A program made the translations under genes and the position numbers. The notes under the pieces are model-generated. The model was not told the DNA's origin. It worked only from the letters and a program-made list of their open reading frames with translations, and searched no databases. From Candidatus Dojkabacteria bacterium (GTDB lineage: Bacteria; Patescibacteriota; Dojkabacteria; B142; OLB20), in contig JAGQLK010000025.1 in assembly GCA_020429485.1 (NCBI GenBank), positions 1 to 10,733 of the forward strand: DNA of 10,733 nucleotides. Direction: 5' to 3'. Positions 3,476 to 8,377 of the stretch are shown in pieces (the first letter of the stretch is position 1; every line of letters starts with the position of its first letter).

Positions 3476-6400
3476 GTGTTTGATAAAGTAAACCCAAGAC
3501 AAAGTTTCCCTGAGCTGGAAGACAACATAACTAAATTCTGGAAAGAGCATAATATTTTTAAGAAATCTATTGAGCAAAGAGATCCAGAAAATAAGTACGT
3601 CTTTTATGATGGGCCACCTTTTATTACTGGCGCACCTCATTATGGATCGTTACTTCCTACAATTGCTAAGGATGTAATTCCAAGATATCAAACAATGAAT
3701 GGGAAATACGTAGAAAGACAATGGGGATGGGATGCTCATGGATTACCTATCGAAAATAAAGTAGAAAAGCAACTTGGCATTGAGAACAGACGTCAAATAG
3801 AAGAATATGGAATTCAGAAGTTTGTTGATGCCTGCTACGAATATACAAAAAATACATCAGCAGAATGGAAATGGTATATCGATAAAATTGGTAGATGGGT
3901 TGACTTTGATAACAGCTACAAGACAATGGACCAAGATTATATGGAGTCAGTAATCTGGGTATTCAAGCAAATATTTGAAAAAGATCTAATCTACGAAGGT
4001 ACCCGAACATCTTTGTACTGTACTAGATGTGGAACTCCAGTTTCGAATTTTGAAATTGCAATGGATAATTCATATGCAGATATGGAAGATCCAGCTGTCA
4101 CTATTAGGTTCCCAGTTATAACAGAAGGTAAATTTAAAGATGCAAGTATACTAGCTTGGACTACTACACCTTGGACATTACCATCAAATAAAGCACTGGT
4201 TGTAGACCCAGAAGAAGATTATGTTCTAATTTCAATAAATGACGAAAAGATAATATTAGCTAAGAAGAGAGCTGAATATGTATTAAAAGAACATGTACAT
4301 AATGTCGAGGATACTTTTAAAGGAGAAGAACTAGTTGGGCTCAAGTATAAACCACCATTTGATTATTTCGAGGCAACTGATGATGAGCATAAAGTTTACA
4401 GCTTTGAAGGAATGGTACACATGGAAGAAGGCACAGGTATCGTGCACTCTGCACCTGGCTTTGGAGATATCGACACAGAGATGGGAGCTCATTACAAACT
4501 TACAAATGCTATGAGCATCGATGATGCAGGTAAATATATTGCAAAAGTAAAAGATTACGAAGGCATATATGTAAAAGATGCTGATGAGAAGATAATTGCT
4601 GACCTGACTGAAGCGGGAATTCTATTCAAATCTGATAGGATAGTTCATAGATATCCATACTGTTGGAGATGCGAGACACCATTAATCCATAAAGCACAAC
4701 CATCGTGGTATATAAATATAGATAAAATCAGAGAAGAACTAATTGCTAATAACGAACATATCAACTGGGTACCAGATCATCTAAAAGAAGGTAGATTTAA
4801 GAAAGGTATTGAAGTTGCACCAGATTGGGGAATCTCCAGAACTAGATTCTGGGCTACTCCAATGCCAGTATGGCAATTAGTTAAGAAAAATGATTCAGGC
4901 GAACAAGAAGTTGTCGAACGAGTTGTTATTGGATCAAGAGATGAACTTAGAGAAAAGTCCGTGCAGCCAATAACCAAAGTAATATTGGTCAGGCATGCTA
5001 CACGAGATAAATCTGAACATGATGGAGAATTAACTGAAGATGGTTGGAAAGAAGTAGAAAAACTCAATGAATTACTAGCATCACAAGAAGTCGATGCAAT
5101 CTACACATCTACAATGAAAAGATGTAAGCAGACAATTGATGAATTTGCTTCCAACAAGGGTCTTACTCCAATTGAAGATGATACCTTCGGAAGTGTTGAT
5201 GTGCGTATGAGATCAGACGATTTACTAGATCCTCTTGTTGCAAAGCATAATGTACAATTCGTAAGTGAATTACCAGAAGAAGTTGTAGCTGAAACATTGA
5301 AAGAGGACTTGAATAAATTAGAAGAAGGATTCAAGAAAATCCTCAAGGAAAACGAAGGTAAATCAATTGTTATTTCAACTCATGGAGAACAGATTGCATT
5401 CATCAAACATTTATTTGAAAGAAAGAACATAACAGAGGGTTATGCAGCAGAAATAGCTAAAGGATCATTCATAACAATGTACTTCGTCGGAGATGAATTA
5501 CTAGATCTGCACAGACCAAAGATTGATAAAATTACTATTAAAGGAGAGAAAGGTGAACTAACAAGAGTAGAAGATGTTTTGGATGTTTGGCTTGATAGTG
5601 GTTCTATGCCTTATGCATCTAAACACTACCCTTTCCAAGATCGAACAGATTTTGAAGATAATTACCCTGCTGATTTCATTGTAGAATACATCGCTCAAAC
5701 AAGAGCATGGTTCTACGTAATGCATGTAATTTCAACTGCATTAATGGGTAGTCACTCATTTAAGAATGTAATAACAACTGGTGTACTATCTGGTACAGAT
5801 GGTAGAAAAATGAGTAAGAGCTATGGAAATTATCCTGATCCTAAAGGAGTACTTGAAGAAATTGGAGCTGAAGCATTGAGATTATATATGATGGGTTCAC
5901 CTATTATGATAGGTGGCGACATGGACTTTAACGAGCAAACATTAAAAGAACAAATCAAAACAATCATATTACCTCTTTGGAATAGCTATTCATTCTTTGT
6001 TACTTATGCAAATATGCATAAATGGGAACCAGATAAAATTCTAGCCGCAAATATTCGTACTGATAATCCAGATACGACTCATATACAATGGGATCATATA
6101 CCATTTGATAATCCTAAGAATAAACTAGATGTATGGATAATAGCTAAATTACAGCTTTTCATCAGGGATGTAAGAATCGCTTTAGATAGTTACAATACAC
6201 CTGCAACGGTTAGATTATTCCCAGAGATGATCAATGATTTATCGAGATGGTATATAAGAAGGTCAAGAGATAGATTTGCAGAAGGTGATAAAGATGCCCT
6301 AGATACGCTTTACTATGTACTAGTTGAAATGTCTAAAGTTATGGCACCAATCACACCTTTCGTGACTGAGGCAATTTACCAGAACCTTGTAGCTATGCAG

Positions 6401-7036
6401 AATAAAGAAGAAAAGCAATCAATTCATCTAACTGACTATCCACACCCAGATATTAAGTTCATGGAAAAATCTGAAGAATTGATGTATCAAATGGATAAGG
6501 TTCGACAAATAGTAGCTCTTGGACAATCAGTTAGAGTTCAAAACGGCTTGAAGGTAAGACAGCCGCTTGCAGAGATCGAGGTGATTTCTGACATCGATCC
6601 AAATCGTAATATCGATATTGAACAATGGATGAAGGAATTGATTATGGATGAATTAAATGTTAAGAAAGTAGATGAGAAATCAGAATTAACTGATAGAGAT
6701 GGGTGGATTAGAGCAAAAGATGATTCAAATAATATAGAAATTAGTATTGATACAAACCTAACTGATGCTTTAAGACGTGAAGGCATGTACCGAGAGTTAG
6801 TTAGACAGGTACAGAGTAACCGTAAAAAGTCAGGAATGCAGATAGGAGATAAAATATCATTGCAAATATCTAGTGAATCAAATGAAGTAAAAACAATGCT
6901 AGACTTATTTAAAGCAGAACTTCTCTCTGGTACAAATGCTAACGATATTATACTTGTCGATACACCTGGAGAAAATTGGGAAACAGCTAAGTTAGGCGAC
7001 GATAAAGCCCTATTCTCTATCACGAAAGTAAATTAG
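3476..7036 (+). CDS. ileS: Isoleucyl-tRNA synthetase (type 2) with embedded histidine-phosphatase domain
   Basis: IleRS charges tRNA-Ile with isoleucine in the cytoplasm. At 1186 residues the chain is longer than usual because of an insert at about 496-676 (described separately). The GTG start gives the typical N-terminus FPELEDNITKFWKEHNIF, and no ATG precedes the catalytic region. The HIGH-type motif reads HYGS (55-58), with Ser replacing the last His. The editing domain (CP1) has TTTPWTLPSN (from 229) and GTGIVHSAPGFGDID (319-333), where D333 aligns with the conserved editing Asp. Cys pairs CTRC (182-185) and CWRC (396-399) may bind zinc. The core resumes at about 677 with DLHR and then DVWLDSGSMPYA, and KMSKS is at 778-782. 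An anticodon-binding domain with WYIRRSRDRF follows, and then the C-terminal region of eukaryote-like IleRS (VRQPLAEIEV, RREGMYRELVRQVQ). The zinc C-terminus of type 1 enzymes is absent. Type 2 enzymes are typically mupirocin-tolerant. Confidence 0.96.
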   Translation: MFDKVNPRQSFPELEDNITKFWKEHNIFKKSIEQRDPENKYVFYDGPPFITGAPHYGSLLPTIAKDVIPRYQTMNGKYVERQWGWDAHGLPIENKVEKQLGIENRRQIEEYGIQKFVDACYEYTKNTSAEWKWYIDKIGRWVDFDNSYKTMDQDYMESVIWVFKQIFEKDLIYEGTRTSLYCTRCGTPVSNFEIAMDNSYADMEDPAVTIRFPVITEGKFKDASILAWTTTPWTLPSNKALVVDPEEDYVLISINDEKIILAKKRAEYVLKEHVHNVEDTFKGEELVGLKYKPPFDYFEATDDEHKVYSFEGMVHMEEGTGIVHSAPGFGDIDTEMGAHYKLTNAMSIDDAGKYIAKVKDYEGIYVKDADEKIIADLTEAGILFKSDRIVHRYPYCWRCETPLIHKAQPSWYINIDKIREELIANNEHINWVPDHLKEGRFKKGIEVAPDWGISRTRFWATPMPVWQLVKKNDSGEQEVVERVVIGSRDELREKSVQPITKVILVRHATRDKSEHDGELTEDGWKEVEKLNELLASQEVDAIYTSTMKRCKQTIDEFASNKGLTPIEDDTFGSVDVRMRSDDLLDPLVAKHNVQFVSELPEEVVAETLKEDLNKLEEGFKKILKENEGKSIVISTHGEQIAFIKHLFERKNITEGYAAEIAKGSFITMYFVGDELLDLHRPKIDKITIKGEKGELTRVEDVLDVWLDSGSMPYASKHYPFQDRTDFEDNYPADFIVEYIAQTRAWFYVMHVISTALMGSHSFKNVITTGVLSGTDGRKMSKSYGNYPDPKGVLEEIGAEALRLYMMGSPIMIGGDMDFNEQTLKEQIKTIILPLWNSYSFFVTYANMHKWEPDKILAANIRTDNPDTTHIQWDHIPFDNPKNKLDVWIIAKLQLFIRDVRIALDSYNTPATVRLFPEMINDLSRWYIRRSRDRFAEGDKDALDTLYYVLVEMSKVMAPITPFVTEAIYQNLVAMQNKEEKQSIHLTDYPHPDIKFMEKSEELMYQMDKVRQIVALGQSVRVQNGLKVRQPLAEIEVISDIDPNRNIDIEQWMKELIMDELNVKKVDEKSELTDRDGWIRAKDDSNNIEISIDTNLTDALRREGMYRELVRQVQSNRKKSGMQIGDKISLQISSESNEVKTMLDLFKAELLSGTNANDIILVDTPGENWETAKLGDDKALFSITKVN
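4961..5503 (+). other. Histidine-phosphatase (phosphoglycerate mutase-like) domain inserted in IleRS
   Basis: About 180 residues (496-676 of IleRS) match the histidine phosphatase superfamily. The first strand VILV leads into the R-H-x motif as RHA (506-508). LTEDGWKEVEKL follows (the usual LT-x-x-G helix), and YTSTMKRCKQT carries the pocket arginine R549. A variable helical region comes next, and VISTHGEQ supplies the second catalytic histidine H636. All four pocket residues (R506, H507, R549, H636) are therefore present, so the domain could be active. The reading frame is continuous on both sides. The flanks, GSRDELREKSV before and DLHRPKIDKI after, are contiguous in ordinary eukaryote-type IleRS. 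Substrate is unknown; the superfamily includes sugar-phosphate, nucleotide and phosphoprotein phosphatases. Confidence 0.9.
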
Positions 7037-7109: not shown

Positions 7110-7751
7110 GTGTACATGATCGGGTCTAGTAATCCATTTTTAGCTTCTGATAACAGTAAGAGTACCAAGGATGTTGTAACGGACTTTCTGCAGACAATAG
7201 TTTTGGCATTAACATTCAGTTTAATTCTCTACCTAGTATTCCTTGTGCCGAGTATTGTTGATGGACCTTCTATGGAACCTAGTTTCTATGATAATGAGCT
7301 TCTATTTGCTAATAAAACAGTTCAATGGATTGGGAATACCAGTTTCGGCGAAAATTACGACTACAAAAGAGGTGATGTGATTATCTTTAGACATCTTGAA
7401 ACTAACTTAATCAAAAGAATTATAGCTGTGGAAGGTGACACTGTAAGAATCAGTTCAGGTAGCGTTTATGTTAATGGCAAAAAGCTAGAAGAGTCATATA
7501 TTGCTCCTGGTATTGAGACTTGGCCACCTACAGGCACTCGAGCATTTTTAGAAGATAATGAAACCATACGTGTCGAAGAAGGTACATACTTTGTTCTTGG
7601 AGATAATAGAACAGTTAGCAAGGATTCTAGATACTCTGAAGTGGGACTTGTACCAAGAGAAGATATTCGCGGCAGAGTATTTTTAAGATACTGGCCTATT
7701 AATCGCTTTGGTTTAATTGGAGCTGGAGAATTTGTTGAGACGTCTGAATAA
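7110..7751 (+). CDS. lepB: Signal peptidase I (first of two tandem copies)
   Basis: Type I signal peptidase removes signal peptides from exported proteins at the outer face of the cytoplasmic membrane, using a Ser-Lys dyad. The 213-residue protein has a polar N-terminus of about 25 residues, one membrane helix (about 26-47), and then the catalytic domain. Box B is DGPSMEPSF with nucleophile S54. YKRGDVIIF (85-93) is box C. LIKRIIAVEGD carries the general base K102 in box D, and GDNRTVSKDSR (164-174) is box E. A single helix and this length fit the Gram-positive-like short form. The start is either GTG at 7110 or ATG at 7116, two codons later; neither has a Shine-Dalgarno sequence, so the choice is open. 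Two bases separate it from the next copy, so the pair is one transcript, probably from the palindrome-bearing promoter just upstream. Confidence 0.95.
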   Translation: MYMIGSSNPFLASDNSKSTKDVVTDFLQTIVLALTFSLILYLVFLVPSIVDGPSMEPSFYDNELLFANKTVQWIGNTSFGENYDYKRGDVIIFRHLETNLIKRIIAVEGDTVRISSGSVYVNGKKLEESYIAPGIETWPPTGTRAFLEDNETIRVEEGTYFVLGDNRTVSKDSRYSEVGLVPREDIRGRVFLRYWPINRFGLIGAGEFVETSE

Positions 7752-7753
7752 TT

Positions 7754-8377
7754 ATGAATGAAAACGGTACAAAAATAAAAAAGGCAATAGTAGATATTTT
7801 CGAGACGCTAGTCATTGCGTTAGCAATAAGTATTGTCATTTATTTGACCATAGCAATCCCTAATCAGGTAGATGGCGTCTCTATGGAGCCCAATTTTAAG
7901 CACAATGAGTTTCTTCTTACAAATAAGACAATTCAATGGCTAGGACAAACAAGCTTTGGTCAAAACTTCAATTATGACTACAAAAGAGGTGATGTAATTA
8001 TATTTCACAATGGGGAATCTGATCTAATTAAACGAATAATAGCGGTAGGTGGAGACACAATAAGAATTGAAGATGACTCTATTTTCGTTAATGATAAAAA
8101 AGTTGATGAAAAATATATTCCAATTACAATTAGGACTGAAGCTTCAGACTCTTCAAATGCCTTTTTAGTTGAAGGAGAAACTATAACTGTACCTGAAGGA
8201 AGCTACTTTGTGATGGGTGACAATCGAGAAAACAGCAAAGATTCAAGGTTAGCAGATGTAGGATTTGTTGATAGAGAAAACATCAGAGGTAAAGTGTTTT
8301 TCCGTTATTGGCCACTAAATAAGTTTGGTATTATAAAGAGAGGTGAATTCACCGAAATCGAGATACAAACAACTTAA
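7754..8377 (+). CDS. lepB: Signal peptidase I (second of two tandem copies)
   Basis: This is a 207-residue paralogue of the preceding gene with the same layout. One membrane helix spans about 15-36, SMEP has nucleophile S43, and YKRGDVIIF is at 76-84. LIKRIIAVGGD carries base K93, and the box E motif is GDNRENSKDSR (155-165). Long stretches agree between the two proteins (NKT-x-QW-x-G-x-TSFG, YKRGDVIIF, LIKRIIAV, FRYWP/LRYWP), so they come from a tandem duplication. They differ in the N-terminal tail and in the loop before box E: residues about 122-140 here are Ser/Thr/Asp-rich, while the first copy has TWPPTGTR. This loop lies near the family's substrate-binding region, so different substrate preferences are possible but not shown. 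Translation probably depends on coupling to the first copy, two bases upstream. Confidence 0.95.
   Translation: MNENGTKIKKAIVDIFETLVIALAISIVIYLTIAIPNQVDGVSMEPNFKHNEFLLTNKTIQWLGQTSFGQNFNYDYKRGDVIIFHNGESDLIKRIIAVGGDTIRIEDDSIFVNDKKVDEKYIPITIRTEASDSSNAFLVEGETITVPEGSYFVMGDNRENSKDSRLADVGFVDRENIRGKVFFRYWPLNKFGIIKRGEFTEIEIQTT

Follow-up and report, generated by a model that had tools for sequence, protein, structure and literature searches.

The CP1 editing domain, a hydrolase inserted in the catalytic fold, is general to IleRS, ValRS and LeuRS. Editing domains are presented as insertion-only modules of synthetases, and synthetases as hosts of insertions, in the available part of PMC13114784, a paper in which terms for a histidine-phosphatase (HP) insert do not occur. 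Another CPR synthetase fusion joins an OB-fold B2 domain to the N-terminal end of TyrRS (PMC5370408, partial text), and the NCBIfam model NF040702 describes an IleRS with a GNAT domain, likewise an extra catalytic domain in IleRS, although that guest is an acetyltransferase and not a hydrolase. Among histidine phosphatases, PhoE, iPSP1 and HFP (PDB 1h2e, 4ij6 and 9mmh) are free enzymes, and MutT1 (PDB 5gg5, 3fjy) fuses HP with Nudix and has no synthetase. Among open-licence PMC papers we found nothing that describes HP or another hydrolase inserted in a CPR synthetase, and a term look-up in the available parts of PMC13215547 and PMC6744442 returned nothing on HP inserts. Novelty is judged here against open-licence papers only; the architecture has already been catalogued automatically, because Pfam annotation in protein databases records the pairing of a synthetase with an HP domain.

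The DNA analysed is a stretch of 10,733 nucleotides (the window) from a genome of Candidatus Dojkabacteria, a CPR lineage (1.29 Mb, 246 contigs, 77% complete). It encodes an IleRS of 1186 residues in one uninterrupted frame with a GTG start (Table 1), which scores 794.4 bits with the IleRS model TIGR00392 (cut-off 621.4) and contains a HIGH-like HYGS motif, seen in the alignment, TTTP at residue 229 and KMSKS at 778. With NF040702 the score is 276 bits against a cut-off of 1999. The best match to the whole predicted model is a Type 2 (eukaryote-like) IleRS, Priestia megaterium IleRS2 (PDB 8c8w; TMt 0.81, 28% identity). The core, editing and anticodon-binding parts are common to both, whereas the solved chain of 8c8w has 1032 residues and a title without histidine phosphatase. 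Named near relatives of the window IleRS are Candidatus Dojkabacteria/WS6. Neighboring genes encode lgt, an FAD/NAD oxidoreductase, two signal peptidases, a ParA-like ATPase, a methyltransferase and ParB; the signal peptidase genes (both PF10502) lie just 3' of IleRS at 7110-7751 and 7754-8377 on the + strand, three bases apart.

An HP domain of branch 1 of the superfamily is inserted in one interval of this class Ia synthetase. PF00300 (His_Phos_1) finds it as a single domain at 60.3 bits, compared with a curated cut-off of 21.7, and the insert modeled alone reached a pLDDT of 91.6, with histidine phosphatases as the top structure matches; score and matches together rule out a chance resemblance. 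Fewer residues align to MutT1 than to iPSP1, and SixA was not among the 50 VIA structure matches listed for the insert, an absence that excludes nothing. The Arg-His, Arg and His of the branch 1 pocket correspond to R506, H507, R549 and H636. A preliminary description, made from the sequence of the window, had reported a complete HP domain in an uninterrupted frame, with both histidines and both arginines present. The domain, the frame and the four residues are borne out by PF00300, the predicted fold and the alignments; completeness extends to the pocket but not to the proton-donor Glu, which is missing from this shortened form.

Table 1. Coordinates in the window of the IleRS gene, its HP insert and the motifs that border them. 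Insert borders follow from an alignment to the IleRS of genome G006, in which the site is empty.
Feature	Position	Strand	Basis or remark
IleRS, host of the insert	3476..7036	+	Open reading frame; TIGR00392 above cut-off; PF00133, PF08264, PF19302
Core motif SRTRFWATPMPVW, residues 454-466	4835..4873	+	Upstream border of the guest-holding interval
HP insert, residues 500-671	4973..5488	+	PF00300 at 502-668; fold
R506-H507, first pocket Arg and nucleophilic His	4991..4996	+	Roles by homology (HFP; available part of PMC12051542)
R549, second pocket Arg	5120..5122	+	
Residues 568-576	5177..5203	+	General-acid Glu segment of other HPs absent; profile alignment
H636, second catalytic His	5381..5383	+	
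DLHR, residues 677-680	5504..5515	+	First conserved IleRS segment after the insert; alignments including empty-site IleRS
DVLDVW, residues 700-705	5573..5590	+	Downstream border of the interval

In some relatives the site is empty. The IleRS of G006, from the same order, aligns to window residues 1-503 and 676-1171 (subject 4-506 and 503-996), skipping the insert alone, and the IleRS of G007 is also empty there, in keeping with the earlier claim that the domain separates segments adjoining in ordinary IleRS. Among 30 members of the class with an IleRS locus, seven have the insert (G000, which is the window genome, and G002, G003, G004, G005, G008 and G009), all from the window's own order. The insert is dispensable, since the other 23 lack it; in G001 and G037 an IleRS match was not found at the threshold used. 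An assembly artefact, a concern raised in the preliminary description, is ruled out because the fusion is present in other records too. Across relatives the site is empty, occupied, doubled or decayed.

The homologue search that had been proposed recovered 18 proteins with the window-type IleRS insert, the window's own included. A search with a ValRS insert gave 39 proteins, 30 of which (P0019-P0048) are ValRS with HP, under the names Dojkabacteria, WS6, Wolfebacteria and Liptonbacteria. The site is empty in five (P0051-P0053, P0056, P0057) and holds a Ser_hydrolase in two (P0054, P0055). In the ValRS P0043-P0048, two of them named Wolfebacteria and Liptonbacteria, HP is flanked by two CxxC-type cysteine pairs that to the eye look like a zinc knuckle. 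One Parcubacteria-type IleRS insert used as query matched 1978 proteins (E up to 0.001), and the best 120 are all IleRS, or fragments of it, that contain PF00300; those with a name come from Yonathbacteria, Nomurabacteria, Niyogibacteria and other CPR. Two HPs occur in five IleRS (L043, L044, L063, L064, L066) and one ValRS (L061), and a 1572-aa IleRS (L053:2867-7582, + strand) has three, the third lying elsewhere, downstream of the usual site. In a scan of the phylum, PF00300 was found in 213 of 286 genomes, and inside an open frame of at least 850 aa in at least 33. Thirty PF00300 places from the scan were examined: 26 lie in long frames, 23 of which encode IleRS and 3 ValRS, with no long non-synthetase protein among them, and the other four, in frames of 396-552 aa, are not synthetases.

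Outside this phylum scan we looked at named genomes, where HP is present in IleRS at 18 of 80 loci, all titled CPR or just 'bacterium': 17 loci, two of them with decayed copies, and a Gracilibacteria locus (L129) read with code 25. The 80 are a sample and not a census, because they are the best of 214 chosen by short IleRS patterns. The insert is absent from the IleRS of the 31 named non-CPR loci, 30 of which are informative (L186 ends just upstream of the insert site). Compared with CP1, HP is a second hydrolase in a different interval, patchy in occurrence and CPR-only in this sample.

The catalytic residues divide the family. In HFP, E82 is the likely proton donor and two insertions (residues 14-24 and 85-120) are thought to set specificity, SixA representing the minimal core fold, according to the available part of a 2025 structure paper (PMC12051542). 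The Glu of PhoE/HFP type is missing from the window insert, though the residues used for this role vary across families, and stretches matching the two HFP insertions are absent in the profile alignment. The window HP differs from PhoE, iPSP1 and HFP both in sitting inside IleRS and in missing the proton-donor segment and adjoining loops. The proton-donor Glu is found in 0 of 17 Dojkabacteria IleRS inserts (six decayed domains of the branch left out), vs. 31/32 other IleRS, 40/40 ValRS and 46/48 other domains. The pocket set R,H,R,H is kept in 48/55 IleRS domains, 39/40 ValRS domains and 46/48 domains outside synthetases, in counts from which L030, L031 and redundant copies of a protein were excluded and in which P0017 was not found by the profile. 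All 120 Parcubacteria-type IleRS keep R,H,R,E,H, a set in which close relatives are over-represented because it holds the best-scoring 120 of 1978. In the 20 rows of alignment A1, all four pocket residues are present in 14 and the pocket is broken in six (P0013 to P0018), and decayed copies are also seen in G003 and G004 (L074, L078). By alignment, the window copy is a member of a shortened branch with its predicted phosphate pocket intact and the putative proton-donor Glu gone. The earlier argument that conserved catalytic residues speak against decay is supported for the Parcubacteria-type and ValRS domains but weakened for the window's own branch, where the six broken rows are just the kind of homologue that had been named as evidence against an active domain.

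HP is not confined to IleRS in the window genome. The second and only other PF00300 match is inside a 959-aa ValRS, and its catalytic residues R,H,R,E,H are all present; the PF00300 scan found no stand-alone HP in this 77% complete genome. The LeuRS (G000:C66, L203:592-3651, - strand, 1020 aa) has a Ser_hydrolase (PF06821) at residues 472-652, downstream of the matching motif SRQRFWGAPIP; this domain has the GxSxG, Asp and His used by such enzymes. The motif SRTRFWATPMPVW or its match starts at residue 454 in IleRS, 430 in ValRS (L001) and 434 in LeuRS (L203), and all three branched-chain synthetases of the genome therefore have a hydrolase after it.

Similar guests recur in other genomes. Ser_hydrolase is also present in the LeuRS of G008, G009, G048 and G051, accompanied in that of G008 (L205:771-4796, + strand) by a Ham1-family domain (nucleotide pyrophosphatase), and the LeuRS of G007 (L208:1315-4164, - strand) has a Nudix domain. 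Two IleRS (L034:2141-6772, + strand; L035:3020-6994, - strand) carry, besides HP, Ser_hydrolase and Nudix domains in the editing region, and Ser_hydrolase occurs in the ValRS L037 and L038 and, with HAD, in L036. In frames of at least 650 aa, 24 of 24 matches from three family scans are in IleRS, ValRS or LeuRS, representing 17 distinct proteins (HP, 11 matches in 57 genomes; Ser_hydrolase, 10 in the same 57; Nudix, 3 in ten genomes of the order). This is a recurrent CPR pattern: small hydrolases in the matching interval or the editing region of IleRS and ValRS, and other hydrolases in LeuRS. The preliminary description had foreseen neither HP in ValRS nor the further hydrolases that LeuRS, ValRS and IleRS carry in this group; its observation is real and more general than it supposed.

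Several further features were seen in these genomes. Most Dojkabacteria IleRS (P0002-P0017, L087) have an editing-region insert of ~180 aa that is absent from the window IleRS; a CYTH-like identity for it, suggested by eye alone, was dropped, as Pfam gave no CYTH match. An ASCH-like identity of some ValRS inserts was likewise rejected (P0034, 17.6 bits against a cut-off of 21.2, E 0.0062). The LeuRS of G048 (L206:1862-5554, - strand) has an extra ~130 aa before KMSKR, nucleotidyltransferase-like by eye, for which a Pfam match was not found. Nudix (PF00293) matches are numerous for genomes of 0.9-1.6 Mb, with 6 to 19 in each of the order's ten genomes (G000-G009).

How do insert and host evolve? 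For two close pairs, dN/dS of HP vs. core was 0.051 vs. 0.034 and 0.050 vs. 0.035, figures that are rough because dS is saturated. By this rough measure HP is under purifying selection in both pairs, slightly weaker than in the core. In the same ValRS pair, the one measured, Ser_hydrolase has a dN/dS of 0.23 and an editing-region insert a pN/pS of 0.5, and both look less constrained. The HP insert evolves faster than the core (mean distance 0.68 vs. 0.39), and the two sets of distances correlate (r 0.68, 171 pairs of 19 rows; none of 2000 permutations as high), as expected if both travel together.

A core tree of 168 IleRS built with FastTree (83 with and 85 without HP, chosen not at random, some rows incomplete, and including 20 of the 120 Parcubacteria-type proteins listed as best of 1978) requires at least 12 changes in HP state, and supported branches force 9 of them. 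The best tree of HP domains, which left out seven decayed or partial domains, places the IleRS inserts in several clades: 17 from Dojkabacteria (UFB 95), 14 from other CPR (UFB 99), a group of 8 (UFB 55) and a second-HP clade of 5 (UFB 87). This domain tree suggests several captures of HP, but AU tests did not reject a single origin for all HPs of IleRS (p 0.105 and 0.162) or for all those of IleRS and ValRS together (p 0.114). In a quicker run the constrained tree was better than the run's own free tree (p 0.745), so that free search was too shallow.

What might the guest do? From its fold and residues we infer an activity, a class of substrate and a coupling to the host, as follows. The insert would act as a tethered phosphomonoesterase: the nucleophilic His would accept phosphate from a small molecule gripped by the two Arg and the second His, and water would then free the phosphate. 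The HP position would correspond to the connective region that links both halves of the catalytic fold, where the domain could act in cis to dispose of phosphorylated by-products, damaged nucleotides or adenylate-like inhibitors met by these synthetases. In the window branch, the loss of the proton donor and nearby loops would therefore restrict it to acid-free substrates, or mean that it is sliding into a structural role. We tentatively prefer, at somewhat less than even confidence, the reading that the insert is a phosphohydrolase tethered next to the synthetic site: ValRS and other CPR IleRS would have it in active form, whereas in the window branch it would be decaying toward a structural role. 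In favor of this reading are the place and predicted fold of the domain, the catalytic residues conserved in the Parcubacteria-type IleRS and in most ValRS and IleRS domains, the roughly measured purifying selection, the recurrence on the core tree, and the confinement to synthetases both of the long-frame matches from the three family scans and of the two HP matches in the window genome. Against it count the missing Glu and broken pockets of that branch, the dispensability of the insert and the weaker constraint that some other guests appear to be under. An enzymatic reading fits the wider family better than the window copy, and the active domain and structural passenger that had been offered as alternatives may both hold, in different lineages.

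A possible but somewhat unlikely alternative is that an ancestor of the window branch captured an active HP of which now the fold alone is needed, for packing or tRNA positioning, while the catalytic parts decay. Retention of the domain in spite of the Glu absent from 17/17 inserts and the pocket broken in 6/20 rows would be explained in this way, as would the decayed copies in G003 and G004 and an insert that changes faster than the core, but the R,H,R,H set kept in the window and 13 other rows of the 20 would not, nor the dN/dS of ~0.05 measured for HP in one IleRS pair from the branch, and the conserved catalytic set of other lineages is left unexplained. We consider it unlikely that the domain is a general-metabolism phosphatase, active and without a link to aminoacylation, that simply sits in a loop tolerant of insertions in an abundant, essential protein. 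The same hosts are used by unrelated hydrolases (Ser_hydrolase, Nudix, HAD, Ham1), and the two synthetase HPs are the sole PF00300 matches in the window genome, as a passenger would allow; however, all 26 long-frame HPs examined in the phylum scan are in IleRS or ValRS, and some genomes (e.g. G005, G007, G008, G009) have stand-alone HPs beside the fused ones. Cleavage of P-N bonds is not known to need a general acid. A SixA-like specialization of the shortened Dojkabacteria form for such bonds (phosphohistidine or phosphoramidate) is nonetheless very improbable: the form lacks the two stretches that separate HFP from SixA with its minimal core fold (PMC12051542, available part), SixA is a phosphohistidine phosphatase (PMC7948535, partial text), and phosphoramidate synthetase inhibitors exist that small hydrolases cleave (two Parcubacteria homologues of these were assayed and one was inactive; PMC7157772, partial text), but TIGR00249 (SixA) gives 21.8 bits against a cut-off of 74.5 and the decay seen in sister lineages resembles the effect of relaxed constraint.

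Two leads bear on substrates of the tethered hydrolases. Synthetases can make dinucleoside polyphosphates, and Nudix and HP share one chain in some CPR IleRS as in MutT1; this could be a lead on function and is not a test of it. Valacyclovir is a valyl ester, and human RBBP9 is presumably a relative of PF06821. RBBP9 is a valacyclovir-activating enzyme according to a title cited in the available part of PMC7730578, and the Ser_hydrolase guests could therefore be aminoacyl-ester hydrolases, which we offer by analogy as a lead only.

Extended to all these guests, the same idea would make the branched-chain synthetases of CPR bacteria platforms with a third catalytic center, in which interchangeable phosphohydrolases or esterases would act in cis on by-products that the enzymes themselves generate, on damaged substrates or on adenylate-like inhibitors. 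Quality control of translation, or self-protection, would thereby gain a layer separate from CP1 editing. We regard this broader proposal as rather unlikely as it stands. Since relatives present a mix of empty, occupied, doubled and decayed sites, the question is testable by assay and by comparison of enzymes. Synthetase-hosted hydrolases also bear on annotation, the ValRS P0032 being recorded as 'HAD-IA family hydrolase' in a public source. Synthetases are among the most conserved enzymes, yet one bacterial radiation repeatedly has them host catalytically conserved phosphatases and other hydrolases, and guests placed repeatedly in one matching region of IleRS, ValRS and LeuRS suggest that a chemical step or hazard at these enzymes has gone unrecognised.
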